Part shown: piece by piece, positions 22,325 to 60,958 of the stretch | How positions within the stretch are numbered: the first letter of the stretch is position 1 | How the letters are laid out: every line of letters begins with the position of its first letter | From: Ornithinimicrobium sp. F0845 | Lineage (GTDB): Bacteria > Actinomycetota > Actinomycetes > Actinomycetales > Dermatophilaceae | DNA length: 64,000 bases | Assembly: GCF_023015765.1 (NCBI RefSeq) | Contig: NZ_JALKAL010000006.1 | Span: 1-64,000, forward strand | Direction of reading: 5' to 3' | Translations under genes and position numbers: made by a program | The notes under the pieces: generated by a model | The model's input: the letters and a program-made list of their open reading frames with translations, nothing else | The model's database searches: none | What the model was told of the DNA's origin: nothing

Positions 22325-22367
22325 GGGACGTGACGCTGGTGCATGAGGTGAACCAGTGTCACGTCCC
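22325..22367. repeat. 43-nt palindromic element, copy A
   Basis: A 43-base imperfect palindrome that begins GGGACGTGAC and ends GTCACGTCCC. The arms pair over about 20 bases with a few mismatches. It lies seven bases past the stop of the EamA gene (minus strand) and could act as a terminator there. The second copy at 45924-45966 has the same length and the same ends but sits inside dapC. Confidence 0.75.
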
Positions 22368-32501: not shown

Positions 32502-32612
32502 GTGTGGGGTCCGTTGCCGTGTGGAGTCCGCTGCCGTGTGGATTCTGTTCTCGTGTGTGGCTTTTGACCCCGTATAGGGACCGAAAGCCACACACCGGCA
32601 CGAAGTCCACAC
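32502..32612. repeat. 17-nt GTGTGGA-type array with central hairpin
   Basis: Four adjacent 17-base units start at 32502, 32519, 32536 and 32553; the first two read GTGTGGGGTCCGTTGCC and GTGTGGAGTCCGCTGCC, and the others diverge. The fourth begins a hairpin: GTGTGTGGCTTT at 32553-32564 pairs with AAAGCCACACAC at 32584-32595. Two more units of the same type follow on the opposite strand, ending at 32612. The array lies in the 318-base gap between the convergent EamA and ICL-like genes, so it may serve as a two-way terminator; the rest of the gap shows nothing else. Confidence 0.75.
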
Positions 32613-43733: not shown

Positions 43734-45038
43734 TCAGGAACTGGTCGAGCCGCCCAGCCAGACCTGCTCGGGCACCGGGTGGCCCAGGAAGTTGGTCATC
43801 GCCTGGGTGAACCCGTACGCCCCGGCCTGACCGAACACCAGCAGGTCACCGGGCCGCAGCGGTCCGAGCTCCGCCGTGCCGACCCGGTCTAGTGAGGTGC
43901 ACAGCGGCCCCGCCAGGGAGTATGTCGTGCGCTCACCGGCCCCGCCTGGCTCACCGTCCTCCGCGGTCCGGGGCCGGAGCCGGTCCGGGACCGACTGCAC
44001 CGGGAAGGACTGACCCGTCATGAGCGGACGCAGCAGGTGGTTGATCCCGCCCTGCAGGATCGCGAACGTCGTGCCGCGGCTCTCCTTCACCCGCACGACA
44101 CGCGTCAGGTAGACGCCGGTCGGTCCGGAGACCCACCGGCCCGGCTCCAGCACGATGTCGCCGGTGAACCACGGATTGGCCTCCAGCAGCTCAGCCAGCC
44201 CGGCGCCGAGGGCGGCGATGTCCAGCTCGGGGGAGCCCACGGCATACGGGATGCCCAGGCCACCACCGAGGTCGATGAGGTCGAGGTCGTGACCCAGGAG
44301 CGACTGCAGCCGCTGCCCGATCCCCAGCGCGGTGGCGTGGTTGGCCACGAGCCGGCCCGCGTCGAGCTCGTTGCTGGCCGAGAAGACCTGCAGTCCCGAC
44401 AGACGCACCTGGGGGTAGGCGGCGCACGCGGCCACGAAGTCGGCCAGGTCCTCCTCGTCCACACCGAACGCCGACGGACCGGAGCCGCCGATGATCGAGG
44501 CCGTCTCGCTGACGCCCTCGAGGGGGTGGACGCGCACGTTGACCGCCAGCGGGACCGTGCCGTGGTGCCAGGCCGCCAGCCGCTCCACGTCCTCGATGCC
44601 GTCGACCTGGATGCGGGCACCGGCTGCGAGAGCGGCGCGCAGGTCGGCCTCGGACTTGGCGGGGCCGGCGAAGACCATGCGACCCGGCACGGCCTCACTC
44701 GGACCGGCCTGCCAGCCGACCTCGTCCCGTGCGGTGCCGACGGCGACGACCTCACCGGCCGAGGCGCAGTCGAACCAGGCGCCCAGCGAGGCCAGCTCGG
44801 CCAGGAGGGGGGCGCCGGGGTTGGACTTCACGGCATACGCCAGGCGCACCCGGTCCGGCAGCGCCGACCGCAGGCTCAGGAAGCGCTCCCGGGCCAGATC
44901 CAGACGGTAGGCGAAGCACGGGGTGCCCAACGTCTCGGCGACCAGGAGGGCGGCCGAGTCCGTGAGGGCGAACAGGTGGTGGTCACCCGACACGGCGGTC
45001 AGAGAGCCCGCGGCGGTCGTGATGGCGGTGGTCGTCAT
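43734..45038 (-). CDS. Type III PLP-dependent decarboxylase (not canonical LysA)
   Basis: A 434-residue alanine-racemase-fold decarboxylase. The PLP lysine lies in RVRLAYAVKSNPGAP (about residue 70) and the PLP-phosphate glycine turn in LGGGLGIPY. In true LysA the PLP region is followed by a GxHxHIGSQ segment; here the matching site reads LQVFSASNELDAG, a form seen in BtrK-like and other special-metabolism decarboxylases. It ends the dap operon and overlaps dapC by four bases. It may decarboxylate diaminopimelate, or an amino acid made from it or on a carrier. Confidence 0.78.
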   Translation of the reverse strand: MTTTAITTAAGSLTAVSGDHHLFALTDSAALLVAETLGTPCFAYRLDLARERFLSLRSALPDRVRLAYAVKSNPGAPLLAELASLGAWFDCASAGEVVAVGTARDEVGWQAGPSEAVPGRMVFAGPAKSEADLRAALAAGARIQVDGIEDVERLAAWHHGTVPLAVNVRVHPLEGVSETASIIGGSGPSAFGVDEEDLADFVAACAAYPQVRLSGLQVFSASNELDAGRLVANHATALGIGQRLQSLLGHDLDLIDLGGGLGIPYAVGSPELDIAALGAGLAELLEANPWFTGDIVLEPGRWVSGPTGVYLTRVVRVKESRGTTFAILQGGINHLLRPLMTGQSFPVQSVPDRLRPRTAEDGEPGGAGERTTYSLAGPLCTSLDRVGTAELGPLRPGDLLVFGQAGAYGFTQAMTNFLGHPVPEQVWLGGSTSS

Positions 45039-46198
45039 GGCACCTCCCAGAACGGCGCCATCCGCTGCAACCCCTGCGCCAGCAGCCGGGGGTCGCCGCC
45101 GCAGGAGACCCGCACGAAGCCCTCACCGGCCGCGCCGAAGGCGGTGCCCGGCACGACGATCACGTGACCCTCGTCGCGCACCCGCCGGCAGAAGCCGAGG
45201 GTGTCGCCGACCGCCCACTCCGGCACCGGGATCCAGGCATAGAAGCCACCGGCGGGCGCGGCCACCGGGCGGACCGCCACGGGACCGGTCTGGGCGATCG
45301 ACCAGCGCTGGATGAGCTCGCGCCGGGTCTGCCGCAGCACCTCCGCGGAGTTGCGCAGCAGGGCGGTCGCGGCCAGCTGGCTCGGCCGGGCCGCGCTGGT
45401 CGTCATCGCGTTGTGCACCAGCCGCGCGGGCTCCAGTAGCGCCGGGTCGCCGACGGCCCAGCCGACACGCAACCCGGGGGCCGCCCAGCCCTTGCTGACC
45501 GAGGACACGACGACACCGCTGGTGCTGACATCCCGCAGCGAGGCCGGGCGCGGCCCGAGGTGGACGTCGCGATACACCTCGTCCGACACCAGGACGGCAC
45601 CCGCCGCGCGGCACGCCGAGGCGACCGCGGCCAGCGCCTCGAGGGAGGCCCCACCACCGGTCGGGTTGCCGGGGTGGTTGATCACCGCGAGCCCCACGTC
45701 GCCCTCCAGCAGCGCGAGGAACGTCTGGGTGTCGAGGTCGCCGCGCGGGCCGAGCGCATACGGCACCGGGACGCCGCCGGCCAGCCGGGCCAGGGTGGAG
45801 TATGCCGGGAAGCCGGGATCGGGGACCAGCACCCGTTGGCCGGGGGAGACGTGGGCGAGGAACAGCGCGGTCAGCGCCGCCTGGCTCCCCGCCGTGACCA
45901 TCACCTGGTCGGCGACGTCACCAGGGACGTGACACTGGTGCACCGGGTGCACCGATGTCACGTCCCCCAGCAGGTGGTAGTCGCCGATGGCCGACACCAG
46001 CTCGGGGATGCCGCCGATGGGGCCGTAGCCCAGCGGCTCCTCACGGGCAGCGCACTCCTCCAGCGCCCGACGCGCCGGCTCCGGCAGCGCCCAGCCGGGC
46101 ACCCCGAGACCGAGGTCGATCGCCTCCGGCGGGGCACCCACGGACATGGCCCGGATCAACGACGGCGACAAGGACGTGACTCGGGTCGCCGTGCTCAT
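45035..46198 (-). CDS. dapC: Succinyldiaminopimelate aminotransferase (DapC type)
   Basis: A 387-residue fold-type I aminotransferase. The PLP lysine is K236 in SSVSKGWAAPGLRVGWA; NHPGNPTGG and SDEVYRDVHLG supply the other cofactor contacts. In a dap operon it should transfer the amino group to N-succinyl-2-amino-6-ketopimelate. Residues 78-93 (from GDVTSVHPVHQ to CHVPGDV) are encoded by a 43-nt palindromic element and look like an in-frame insertion just before the conserved VMVTAGSQAAL. Both ends overlap its neighbours by four bases. Confidence 0.85.
   Translation of the reverse strand: MSTATRVTSLSPSLIRAMSVGAPPEAIDLGLGVPGWALPEPARRALEECAAREEPLGYGPIGGIPELVSAIGDYHLLGDVTSVHPVHQCHVPGDVADQVMVTAGSQAALTALFLAHVSPGQRVLVPDPGFPAYSTLARLAGGVPVPYALGPRGDLDTQTFLALLEGDVGLAVINHPGNPTGGGASLEALAAVASACRAAGAVLVSDEVYRDVHLGPRPASLRDVSTSGVVVSSVSKGWAAPGLRVGWAVGDPALLEPARLVHNAMTTSAARPSQLAATALLRNSAEVLRQTRRELIQRWSIAQTGPVAVRPVAAPAGGFYAWIPVPEWAVGDTLGFCRRVRDEGHVIVVPGTAFGAAGEGFVRVSCGGDPRLLAQGLQRMAPFWEVP
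45924..45966. repeat. 43-nt palindromic element, copy B, inside dapC
   Basis: The same 43-base palindrome as at 22325-22367: it starts GGGACGTGAC and ends GTCACGTCCC. The arms of about 21 bases pair with two mismatches around one central base. It lies in the dapC coding region and keeps the frame open because a few flanking bases (GACGT on both sides) appear duplicated. On RNA it would form a long stable hairpin in mid-gene. Confidence 0.75.
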
Positions 46199-47061
46199 CG
46201 CAGCGCCTCCTCGAGGACGGTCGAGGCGTCGGTGGAGCCGTCGCGGTACTTCACGATCACCGGCGCATACAGGGAGATCCCCAGCGACTCGGCATACTGC
46301 CCGCGGGCGGGACGTGAGCCGGGGACGACGACCGCACCGGCGGGCACCTCGCCGCGGACCTCGCGGCCGTTGACCAGGTCGTAGATCACGGTGCGCGAGG
46401 TGAGAGTGACGCCCGGGGCGAGGACCGCGCGCTCGCGGACGACGACCCCCTCGTAGAGCCCGCACTGCGCCCCGACGAACGCGTCGTCCTCGACGACGAC
46501 CGGGGTGGCCCCGATCGGCTCGAGCACGCCGCCGAGCTGGACGGCGGTGGACAGGTGGACGCGCTCGCCGACCTGGGCGCACGAGCCGACGAGCACGTGG
46601 CTGTCGACCATCGAGCCGGTGCCGACCCACGCACCGGTGTTGAGATAGCTCGGCGGCATGACGACGGTGCCCTCGGCCAGGCCGGCCCCGCGGCGCACGG
46701 AGGTGCCGCCCGGCACGAGCCGGATGCCGTGGGCCGGGTCGATCTGTCGCGGCGGCACCAGCGACTTGTCGACCGCACCGCCCGGCCAGCCGGGCACCGC
46801 GATGGTCTCGCTGAGCGCGAAGGCGGCCAGGATGCCGGACTTCACCCAGGCGTCGGCGTGCCACGTGCCGTCGGCGTCCCGCTCGGCAGCCCGGACCGCG
46901 CCGGACTCCAGCGCGTCGAGGAACTCCCCGAGCCGTTCTGGAGCGGTCGGATCCTCCCGCAGCTCCGCGACCGGCCGGGAGAGGTAGTCGACGAGAGTCG
47001 TGCCTGTCGTGGTCATGGCGGTCGTGGTCGTGGTCGTGGCGGGCGTGGTCGTGGCGGTCAT
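46195..47061 (-). CDS. dapD: Tetrahydrodipicolinate N-succinyltransferase DapD
   Basis: A 288-residue hexapeptide-repeat acyltransferase. The left-handed beta-helix shows in AEGTVVMPPSYLNTGAWVG, GSMVDSHVLVGSCAQVG and VEDDAFVGAQCGLYEGVVV. It succinylates tetrahydrodipicolinate to start the succinylase branch of DAP synthesis. The first 20 residues are a Thr-rich stretch from a low-complexity DNA repeat, so a start at a later ATG (M16) is possible. The start overlaps dapA and the end overlaps dapC. Confidence 0.9.
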   Translation of the reverse strand: MTATTTPATTTTTTAMTTTGTTLVDYLSRPVAELREDPTAPERLGEFLDALESGAVRAAERDADGTWHADAWVKSGILAAFALSETIAVPGWPGGAVDKSLVPPRQIDPAHGIRLVPGGTSVRRGAGLAEGTVVMPPSYLNTGAWVGTGSMVDSHVLVGSCAQVGERVHLSTAVQLGGVLEPIGATPVVVEDDAFVGAQCGLYEGVVVRERAVLAPGVTLTSRTVIYDLVNGREVRGEVPAGAVVVPGSRPARGQYAESLGISLYAPVIVKYRDGSTDASTVLEEALR

Positions 47062-48047
47062 GACGCCACCGCCGTCCGCAGCTCGACGGCCGGTGCGGTG
47101 GGTGCTCCGGGGGTCAGCGCGAGATCGGACAGGGCCGCCTGGATCCGTGCCCAGGTGTCGGGCGCGGCGGGCACCAGCGGCAGCCGCACCATGCCGGTGG
47201 CCAGGCCGAGGCAGGCCAGCGCGGCCTTGAGCGGCACCGGGTTGGTCTCGGAGAACAGCGCGGACATCAGCGGGGCCAGCTCGGCGTTGAGCTCGCGCGC
47301 GCGGACCAGGTCGCCGGCGACCGCACTGTGGACCAGCTCCGCGGTCTGCGTGGGCGCGACGTTGCCACAGACCGAGACCAGCCCGGTCGCACCGACGGCG
47401 ATCGCCGGCAGGGCCAGGTCGTCGTCGCCGGCCAGCACGGCCTTGCCGGCGGGCGCCTCCTGGCAGATCCGGACCATCTGGCGCATGTCGCCCGAGGACT
47501 CCTTGACGGCCACGACCTCCGGGATCGCCCACAGCTCGCGCAGCGTCTCCGGCGTCAGGTTCGAGCCCGTCCGACCGGGCACGTTGTAGGCGATGATCGG
47601 CACGCCCGGCAGCTCCTCGGCGATCGCCCGGAAGTGCGCGACGATCCCGGCGGGCTGCGGCTTGTTGTAGTACGGCGTCACCACGAGCAGCCCGTCCGCG
47701 CCCGAGGCGACGGCGGCGCGGGCCAGCTCCACGGCATACGCCGTGTTGTTGTGCCCGGTGCCGACGACCAGGGGCACGCCGGGGGCGGCCTCGCGGGCGG
47801 TGCGCACCAGGCCGGCGCGCTCGCACTCGTCGACCGTGGCGGCCTCGCCGGTGGACCCGAGGACCACCAGGAAGTCGGCGCCGCCGGCGACGACGTGCCG
47901 GACGAGACGGTCATAGGCCGCGAGGTCCACGGCGGGCCGCATGCGGGAGGAACCTCCGCCGACGGCCGGCTTGGCGGTCGACTCCGTCCCTGTGGTGAAC
48001 GGGGTGGCCAGCGCCACGCCGAGGCCGGTGAACTGTGCACCGCTCAT
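47058..48047 (-). CDS. dapA: 4-Hydroxy-tetrahydrodipicolinate synthase DapA
   Basis: A 329-residue TIM-barrel aldolase that condenses pyruvate with aspartate semialdehyde. FLVVLGSTGEAATV gives the Thr of the catalytic triad, PIIAYNVPGRTG the tyrosine, and VAVKESSGD the Schiff-base lysine. The N-terminus carries an insert of about 20 residues, rich in Gly and Ser, between the first strand and helix. An AGGAGG ribosome site precedes the ATG. It follows dapB by 26 bases and overlaps dapD. Confidence 0.92.
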   Translation of the reverse strand: MSGAQFTGLGVALATPFTTGTESTAKPAVGGGSSRMRPAVDLAAYDRLVRHVVAGGADFLVVLGSTGEAATVDECERAGLVRTAREAAPGVPLVVGTGHNNTAYAVELARAAVASGADGLLVVTPYYNKPQPAGIVAHFRAIAEELPGVPIIAYNVPGRTGSNLTPETLRELWAIPEVVAVKESSGDMRQMVRICQEAPAGKAVLAGDDDLALPAIAVGATGLVSVCGNVAPTQTAELVHSAVAGDLVRARELNAELAPLMSALFSETNPVPLKAALACLGLATGMVRLPLVPAAPDTWARIQAALSDLALTPGAPTAPAVELRTAVAS

Positions 48048-49145: not shown

Positions 49146-49315
49146 TAGCGCGAGTCAAGCACCTCGAGCAGTCCTGGACGTCGTCGGACCCCGGCGGCCA
49201 GGTCATCGACGCCGCCATGGGCCCGGTGAGCAGGCCGTCGGTGTGACACGGACTCAGCCTTTGAGAGCGGTCCGGCAGATCCTTCCGACTGGTCGCCCGT
49301 GCCCGCCCGGTTTCC

Positions 49316-49378
49316 GTGCGAGCAACACGCCGTCGGTGCGAGCACTAGGACCTCACTCCGACGGCGTGTTGCTCGCAC
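49316..49378. repeat. 21-bp perfect inverted repeat
   Basis: The 21 bases at 49316-49336 (starting GTGCGAGCAACACGC) are exactly complemented at 49358-49378, with a 21-base loop. The loop itself repeats GTGCGAGCA. The hairpin would be very stable. It could terminate transcription, or mark an old insertion end; no transposase is nearby. Confidence 0.75.
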
Positions 49379-49483
49379 CGATTAGGTGACGCCCCGCCGC
49401 GGGTCGATGGCCGTCTTATGCATCGGGCTCGACGCGACCACTCGGCGCGTTGTGCGTCGTGCTGGCTGTGCTGGGATGAGCAG

Positions 49484-49831
49484 GTGGCTGACGTCGAGGA
49501 CGTGCGCGCGTTCGCGCTGACGCTCGAGCGCGCCTACGAGGTGTTCGTCCGTGGGCGGCGCAAGTTCCGGGTCGGGTCGCTGGTCTTTGTGGCCTTCTCC
49601 GACGACGAGGAGATCATCGAGTTCGGCTTCCCCAAGGAGGAGCGGGACGGCCTGATCGCCAGCGACCCGGACACCTTCTCGCTCCCGTCGCAGAGCGACC
49701 TGCGTTTCAACTGGGTCCGGGCGCGGATGGACCGGCTCGACCCGGCCGAGGCCCGGGAGTTCGTCGTCGAGGCGTGGCGGATGTGCGTGGCCCCAGAAGG
49801 TGGCCAGGGCCTGGGACGAGGCGCATCCTGA
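49484..49831 (+). CDS. MmcQ/YjbR-like protein
   Basis: A 115-residue small protein. ADVEDVRAFALTLERAYE at the start, a strand pair FRVGSLVFVAFSDDEEIIEFGF and the closing RFNWVRARMDRLDPAEAREFVVEAWRM fit the MmcQ/YjbR (CyaY-like) fold, thought to bind DNA. The GTG at 49484 leaves the conserved N-terminal helix; the longer open frame upstream is Cys/Arg-rich and not typical. It stands alone, with repeats on its left and a toxin-antitoxin pair facing it on the right. Confidence 0.7.
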   Translation: MADVEDVRAFALTLERAYEVFVRGRRKFRVGSLVFVAFSDDEEIIEFGFPKEERDGLIASDPDTFSLPSQSDLRFNWVRARMDRLDPAEAREFVVEAWRMCVAPEGGQGLGRGAS

Positions 49832-60883: not shown

Positions 60884-60893
60884 GGCTGTCCGG

Positions 60894-60951
60894 GAGTATG
60901 CCGTGGCTCAGGTAAGCTGCGACGTTGGCCAGCCTGCCCCACGGCATACTC
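60894..60951. repeat. Inverted pair of the octamer, 13-bp arms
   Basis: GAGTATGCCGTGG at 60894-60906 is exactly complemented by CCACGGCATACTC at 60939-60951, with a 32-base loop. Both arms contain the dispersed octamer. The right arm ends eight bases before the GTG of the next gene, so the hairpin could affect its translation or transcription. Confidence 0.75.
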
Positions 60952-60958
60952 TCGTCCC

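Follow-up and report, generated by a model that had tools for sequence, protein, structure and literature searches.

The window, that is the whole 64,000-nt stretch of DNA analysed here, carries on its minus strand a row of genes (43734-48047) related to lysine biosynthesis. It starts with dapA (4-hydroxy-tetrahydrodipicolinate synthase, 47058..48047; TIGR00674, 271 bits for a cut-off of 206) and dapD (tetrahydrodipicolinate N-succinyltransferase, 46195..47061; NCBIfam NF008808, 274 bits for a cut-off of 204). The latter is the upstream neighbour of a gene for a DapC-like class I/II PLP aminotransferase of 387 aa (45035..46198), which is followed by a gene for a PLP-dependent decarboxylase-like protein (43734..45038; TIGR03099, 240 bits, under the cut-off of 478). 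The aminotransferase matched 99 PDB sequences (best E 2.6e-31), which places it in class I/II of the PLP aminotransferases. It had been named DapC in an initial reading of the sequence alone (hereafter the sequence-only reading). The genomic context speaks for this name, with dapD and dapA passing curated cut-offs, but the DapC models do not, their scores lying well under the cut-off (DapC_actino, TIGR03539, 101 bits for 356; TIGR03537, 106 bits for 454). Among the matches listed (25 of the 65 obtained), no curated NCBIfam cut-off is reached by this protein, and 'DapC' is thus a contextual name. Since neither the aminotransferase nor the decarboxylase-like gene passes a curated cut-off among the models listed, the row may represent a specialised rather than a housekeeping lysine cluster.

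Within the aminotransferase gene lies a 43-nt palindromic element (45924..45966), with arms at 45924-45944 and 45946-45966. In the minus-strand reading it encodes residues 78-92, immediately ahead of ADQVMVTAGS; the sequence-only reading had given about 78-93. Self-complementarity extends to 38 of its 43 positions, the 21-nt arms being 90% complementary, and RNA folding of a 61-nt stretch around it gave z values of -3.8 and -4.3 on the two strands. A second palindrome of this size with the same ends had been described and was indeed located, at 22325..22367. It is intergenic, flanked by two minus-strand genes, with the 3' end of the right-hand gene 6 nt away; it was not seen beside the orthologue of that gene in the relatives G005 and G006, where the left flank gives no alignment. 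With up to 2 mismatches allowed, the window contains 17 matches to a 14-nt half-site pattern, for 6.1 expected. The full pattern derived from both window copies was found at four places of the genome (up to 3 mismatches) and at none for the reversed control, which disposes of the objection that further copies might be lacking. These four one-unit copies of the genome of the window (G000 in the comparisons below, where G002, G005, G006 and so on are relatives) are C56:22325, C56:45924, C56:92036 and C1:26195. Their cores agree mutually at 82-95%, the core of the aminotransferase copy matching the other three at 82-92%. The elements have terminal inverted repeats, as expected of MITEs, and the palindrome is free of stops in two of its three frames.

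The short target duplication proposed by the sequence-only reading, GACGT on both sides, did not hold: one GACGT begins at 45914, 10 nt outside the left end, another at 45926, within the element's own arm, and none is present outside the right end of 45924-45966. CTGG, noticed by eye on both sides in coding orientation, overlaps the last base of the element and carries no weight at such a length. At unoccupied sites, the flanking sequences have diverged so far that the exact limits of an insertion cannot be drawn. Other long inverted repeats are present in the window, at 32536-32612 and 60891-60954 (arms of 36 and 22 nt). An isolated one at 49313-49381, before the gene at 49484, has 30-nt arms that are 90% complementary and 9 nt apart; no second copy of it was found in the sequence searched.

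The element adds about 14 residues (78-92) to the aminotransferase. A match to this protein was obtained in all 31 genomes of the genus, the best one in G017 and G024 being merely a 34-36% relative. The spacing between GxPELV and VMVTAGS is 43 residues in G000, 58 in G006, 29-30 in G005, G002 and G007, and 26-53 in the remaining 24 of the 29 loci compared; since lengths spread from 26 to 58 residues, this segment is a variable one. DNA alignment indicates that the aminotransferase gene lacks the element in G005, G002 and G007. In G006, a 44-nt element is inserted at the identical codon and followed by further extra residues, both the codon position and the GDV on either side of the insert being the same as in G000. 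The proposed in-frame insertion is thus borne out against close homologues, being absent from three of the four nearest relatives and present at the same codon in the fourth. Homologues of distant genera carrying the same residues had been named as the finding that would speak against it; G005, G002 and G007 are already without the insert. Sequence comparison therefore supports the view that, relative to three of the four nearest relatives, residues 78-92 stem from a dispersed palindromic repeat inserted in frame.

The alternative that the extra residues are a vertically inherited variable loop, with no insertion at all, would accommodate both the 26-58 residue range over 29 loci and the G006 element at the identical codon. 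It is nevertheless very improbable, given the 82-92% likeness of the core to the three remaining one-unit copies in G000, and given that the two element-bearing species are not sisters. The latter point comes from trees of the 4-kb locus and of about 15.6 kb of syntenic sequence (support 72-100), and it implies that the codon common to G000 and G006 requires losses or repeated insertion. In the AlphaFold2 model (25-row alignment, mean pLDDT 87), only residues 1-4 and 79-92 have a pLDDT below 50. As modelled, the insert apparently gives the aminotransferase an additional flexible loop, a low pLDDT being expected anyway for an insert covered by few alignment rows.

The 43-nt form is the shortest, one-unit member of a modular family that forms arrays, a feature overlooked in the sequence-only reading. 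Between conserved outer arms (GGGACGTGACAYYGGTG and CACCRRTGTCACGTCCC) stand n tandem hairpin units, each about 30 nt long, and the inward-facing half-site pairs of six genomes correspond to 1 to about 9 units per element. A covariance model trained on 15 copies of the one-unit type also matched the longer objects. Element lengths in G000 are 43 (four copies), 72, 128, 130, 130, 159, 186, 186, 216, 244 and 276 nt, with one broken copy in addition. Those of the relatives are mostly 44, 74, 104, 134 or 164 nt (exceptions 42, 45, 133, 135 and 194), and the same series prevails in G002, G007 and G017 taken together, with 133, 135 and 194 as exceptions. Units are usually alike inside one array and different between arrays; in one array, the unit CATTGGTGTGCTGAGGCGCACCACCCGACC is repeated 4.8 times with a 99% match. 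The fold of a five-unit array reaches -104 kcal/mol (z -9.1). Beside one six-unit array (L150, about 1870-1975), a repeat of roughly 40 nt with the core GGGCAGTGCTCACGCACGCAACAA stands in three near-tandem copies; no copy of it was found in the large stretches searched.

The positions GACGTGACA of the arms are near-invariant in an alignment of 44 elements (the 46 listed copies minus one broken copy and one with a differing anchor), and the neighbouring positions vary. Covariation was weak in the first 15 copies from the genus, the paired percentage being reached by 99 of 500 shuffles. It was moderate in the 44 elements, with 677 Watson-Crick cells for a shuffled mean of 659 and maximum of 678, and 26 both-side changes for a shuffled mean of 14.6 and maximum of 26. 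Mismatches of the G.U and A.C types are about equally frequent (20 and 23, the orientation of the element being arbitrary), and a strand-specific RNA signal thus appears to be absent. No Rfam family matched the element; the nine sources searched at the gathering threshold gave two tRNAs only.

The 46 listed copies, an incomplete inventory, are distributed over seven genomes (15 in G000, 9 in G007, 6 each in G002 and G006, 5 in G017, 3 in G024 and 2 in G005), three further G024 loci with half-sites and an array in G011 standing outside this list. Strong matches to the model (E <1e-9) were obtained in G000, G002, G005, G006, G007 and G024, with arrays also in G017 and G011; at E <=0.1, 23 of the 31 genomes give a match, most of them weak. 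Of 186 genomes of the family, 9 have an 18-nt half-site, and all 9 belong to this genus; the isolated match in G013 looks like chance. In a collection of 84,980 species genomes, from which the window's own genome is possibly absent, four contigs carry the one-unit palindrome pattern: one belongs to Ornithinimicrobium cavernae and three to a single Actinomycetales MAG. At the sensitivity used, the repeat is restricted to part of a single genus, apparently Ornithinimicrobium as delimited by GTDB.

Another genus of the same bacterial family provides a comparable object. Its genome G077 contains eight or more palindromes of 60 bp (L030-L036) that share the GACGTGAC ends but not the interior. This interior covaries strongly, 8 of 27 pairs having changed on both sides (0 of 500 shuffles). 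Two of eight lie between convergent, four between co-directional and two between divergent genes, the last being a point against the explanation preferred below. The sharing of ends is partly ascertainment, since these palindromes were found by that motif. The arrays might be read as binding sites for a sequence-specific nucleoid or regulatory protein, with the arms as its motif and the unit number tuning the effect. The near-constancy of GACGTGACA in 44 elements and the recurrence of the arm motif in this differently built palindrome family would both agree with such a role. The elements were, however, collected through that very motif, which makes their constancy partly a product of ascertainment, and the gene-internal copies are difficult to account for, so that this reading looks unlikely.

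The reading as a dispersed hairpin repeat gains from the comparison of sites between species. Comparison of flanks gave nine orthologous site groups, defined by homology of at least one flank, and 19 single sites. The number of units varies between species in seven of the nine groups (for example 9/6/5/5/3, or, at one site, 2, 4, 3, 5 and 2 in G000, G002, G007, G017 and G005, respectively). The other two, the aminotransferase site and C56:92036 (five species), are one-unit throughout. Two G000 arrays were traced to seven relatives: L154 is absent from G024 and G002, and L152 from G017 and G002, though both flanking genes align in each case. At these places, more than 1 kb of other sequence separates the flanks in G007 (both arrays) and in G006 (L152).

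Some copies are read as protein. The C1:26195 copy is read in frame, in one species, as part of the linker joining the two domains of an ECF-type ATPase. In the gene following this ATPase (L131, L137, L129 and L126), an array is read as a C-terminal tail in G000, G002, G005 and G017, taking the form of ten-residue repeats in G017; in G007, the gene stops before the array. Inside genes, the element is probably near neutral in effect. The ATPase linker of relatives (L171, L173, L175 and L176) contains another short repeat, around GACCGAGCGC, of which G017 has several copies, and which may be a second dispersed repeat family.

Gene context, taken from an in-house gene-calling script based on codon usage rather than from a published caller, could be assigned to 24 independent intergenic sites. 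Three intragenic groups were omitted. So was one group flanked by a tRNA, around which the orientation of the neighbouring protein genes changes with the species: convergent in G000, co-directional in G006 and G007, divergent in G002 and G017. The 24 sites comprise 16 convergent, 8 co-directional and 0 divergent ones, compared with 39, 158 and 67 among 264 background gaps (at least 40 nt, about 500 kb), a convergent enrichment (16/24 against 39/264) with a Fisher p of about 1e-7. The sites are thus strongly biased towards the 3' ends of genes and towards convergent pairs. This bias, together with the retention of orthologous places in up to five species and the very stable fold of the five-unit array, raises the possibility of a functional 3'-end signal (a bidirectional terminator or an mRNA-stabilising hairpin) selected between convergent genes, the gene-internal copies being strays. 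Several observations make this doubtful. The aminotransferase copy, considered as a terminator with a T-run, has no such run, and inspection by eye showed no T-tract in the 12 nt that follow the elements examined. Over 104 kb of G000, the nine convergent gaps that reach 40 nt are all without a listed copy, sites are gained and lost between species, and termination does not need arrays of about 9 units. Neutral tolerance downstream of genes predicts the same bias, as argued for BOX elements in PMC3049150.

The copies at the same aminotransferase codon in G000 and G006 may result from independent insertions at one preferred target instead of a shared ancestral insertion; we give the independent origin somewhat less than an even chance. 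Each copy is nearest to a copy of its own genome (92.3% and 92.5%, against 87.5% between the counterparts), and their hosts are not sisters. On the other hand, C56:92036, probably ancestral in view of its presence in five species, behaves likewise, its G000 copy being 95% identical to another G000 copy against 80-85% to four counterparts, and the agreement in codon position and bilateral GDV would also fit a single event. Judging from the sequences, within-genome homogenisation of copies is visible and not universal, the G024 and G002 counterparts of C56:92036 being 98% alike. Similarity is thus no guide to one versus two insertions in the aminotransferase.

As a whole, the locus is best explained, with a probability of about 0.72, by a modular hairpin repeat, here in its one-unit form, which is dispersed, non-autonomous and genus-restricted and is tolerated in a variable loop. 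We infer that this repeat has been mobile. Copies would spread by a putative trans-acting enzyme recognising the arms, or by recombination, and the unit number would shift by replication slippage or unequal exchange. The aminotransferase copy presumably survives because two frames are open, the gene has grown by a whole number of codons, and the extra residues would form a disordered surface loop. Between genes, the element may incidentally serve as a 3'-end hairpin. In a more speculative and improbable extension, the unit would have settled at 30 nt, equal to ten codons, in several species with few exceptions. This would allow the repeat to expand and contract within coding sequence without frameshift, as in the ten-residue repeats encoded at the end of the gene following the ECF-type ATPase, and the same enzyme codon would have been entered twice through a putative sequence-specific mobilising enzyme.

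Several sites are common to up to five species, which leaves present-day mobility presumptive. The RAYT-like transposase suggested by the sequence-only reading was not encountered: RAYT or IS200/IS605-type Y1 transposases (PF01797) were found in none of the 31 genus genomes, while 5 of 14 control genomes were positive. A search for an autonomous parent or IS with matching ends among the half-sites (up to 2 mismatches) of six genomes gave none; inward-facing pairs at IS-like distance were considered, neighbouring elements aside, with 0-3 per genome and strand in the reversed control. A phage or plasmid vehicle was discarded, as the five-unit array had no match in plasmids and phages, the one-unit palindrome pattern was absent from viral contigs, and the half-site occurred in three viral contigs, none with an inward-facing partner nearby. 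The initial idea of a small non-autonomous element tolerated in an enzyme thus stands as regards the dispersed repeat and its in-frame position, without the RAYT and the target duplication.

No earlier description of the family was found in open PMC papers on Ornithinimicrobium repeats or on actinobacterial hairpin or BOX-like repeats. It is best read as a new family of BOX-like architecture, judging from the published descriptions of BOX and of the Rickettsia palindromic elements. The middle modules of BOX elements are about 45 nt long. The family described here differs in its modules of about 30 nt and minimal form of 43 nt, its G+C-rich composition and its phylum, and in that no IS with matching ends was found for it in six genomes. 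As in the BOX elements of Streptococcus pneumoniae (boxA-boxB(n)-boxC), conserved ends surround variable tandem middle modules (PMC3049150). The same paper extends the likeness to a unit number that varies between genomes at one site, to over-representation between convergent genes and to a non-autonomous character; BOX is reported there as gene-disrupting, whereas copies here lie in frame within apparently intact genes.

The sequence-only reading had also invoked the Rickettsia palindromic elements. The resemblance holds for the in-frame location in proteins and not for family membership, size and build being different. These elements are dispersed palindromes fused in frame into conserved enzymes, as in the present case, and measure 105-146 bp according to PMC2229807, against 43-44 nt, or arrays growing by about 30 nt, here. 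The GTAG/CGTC REPs are described in PMC3733652 as small palindromes located mostly between unidirectional and convergent genes, with some intragenic, and the CGTC repeats, like the present family, are without known transposase. The rule given there for CGTC REPs is an unpaired CGTC tag, an 8-9 bp stem and a 4-5 nt loop. In contrast, CGTC here pairs with GACG within a stem of at least 17 bp, an unpaired GTAG/CGTC tag is absent, and, unlike in REP/RAYT systems, no RAYT is found in the genus (0 of 31 genomes). According to PMC3733652, REP-type families are known mainly from Proteobacteria, Cyanobacteria and some other phyla, REP-like sequences being mentioned for M. tuberculosis. A candidate transposase for the present family would have ends sharing GGGACGTGACA. 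Its orthologous sites provide a test set for multiplication without a recognised transposase and for protein remodelling, in a G+C-rich actinobacterial family whose modules expand in the manner of BOX and which enters protein genes as the Rickettsia elements do.
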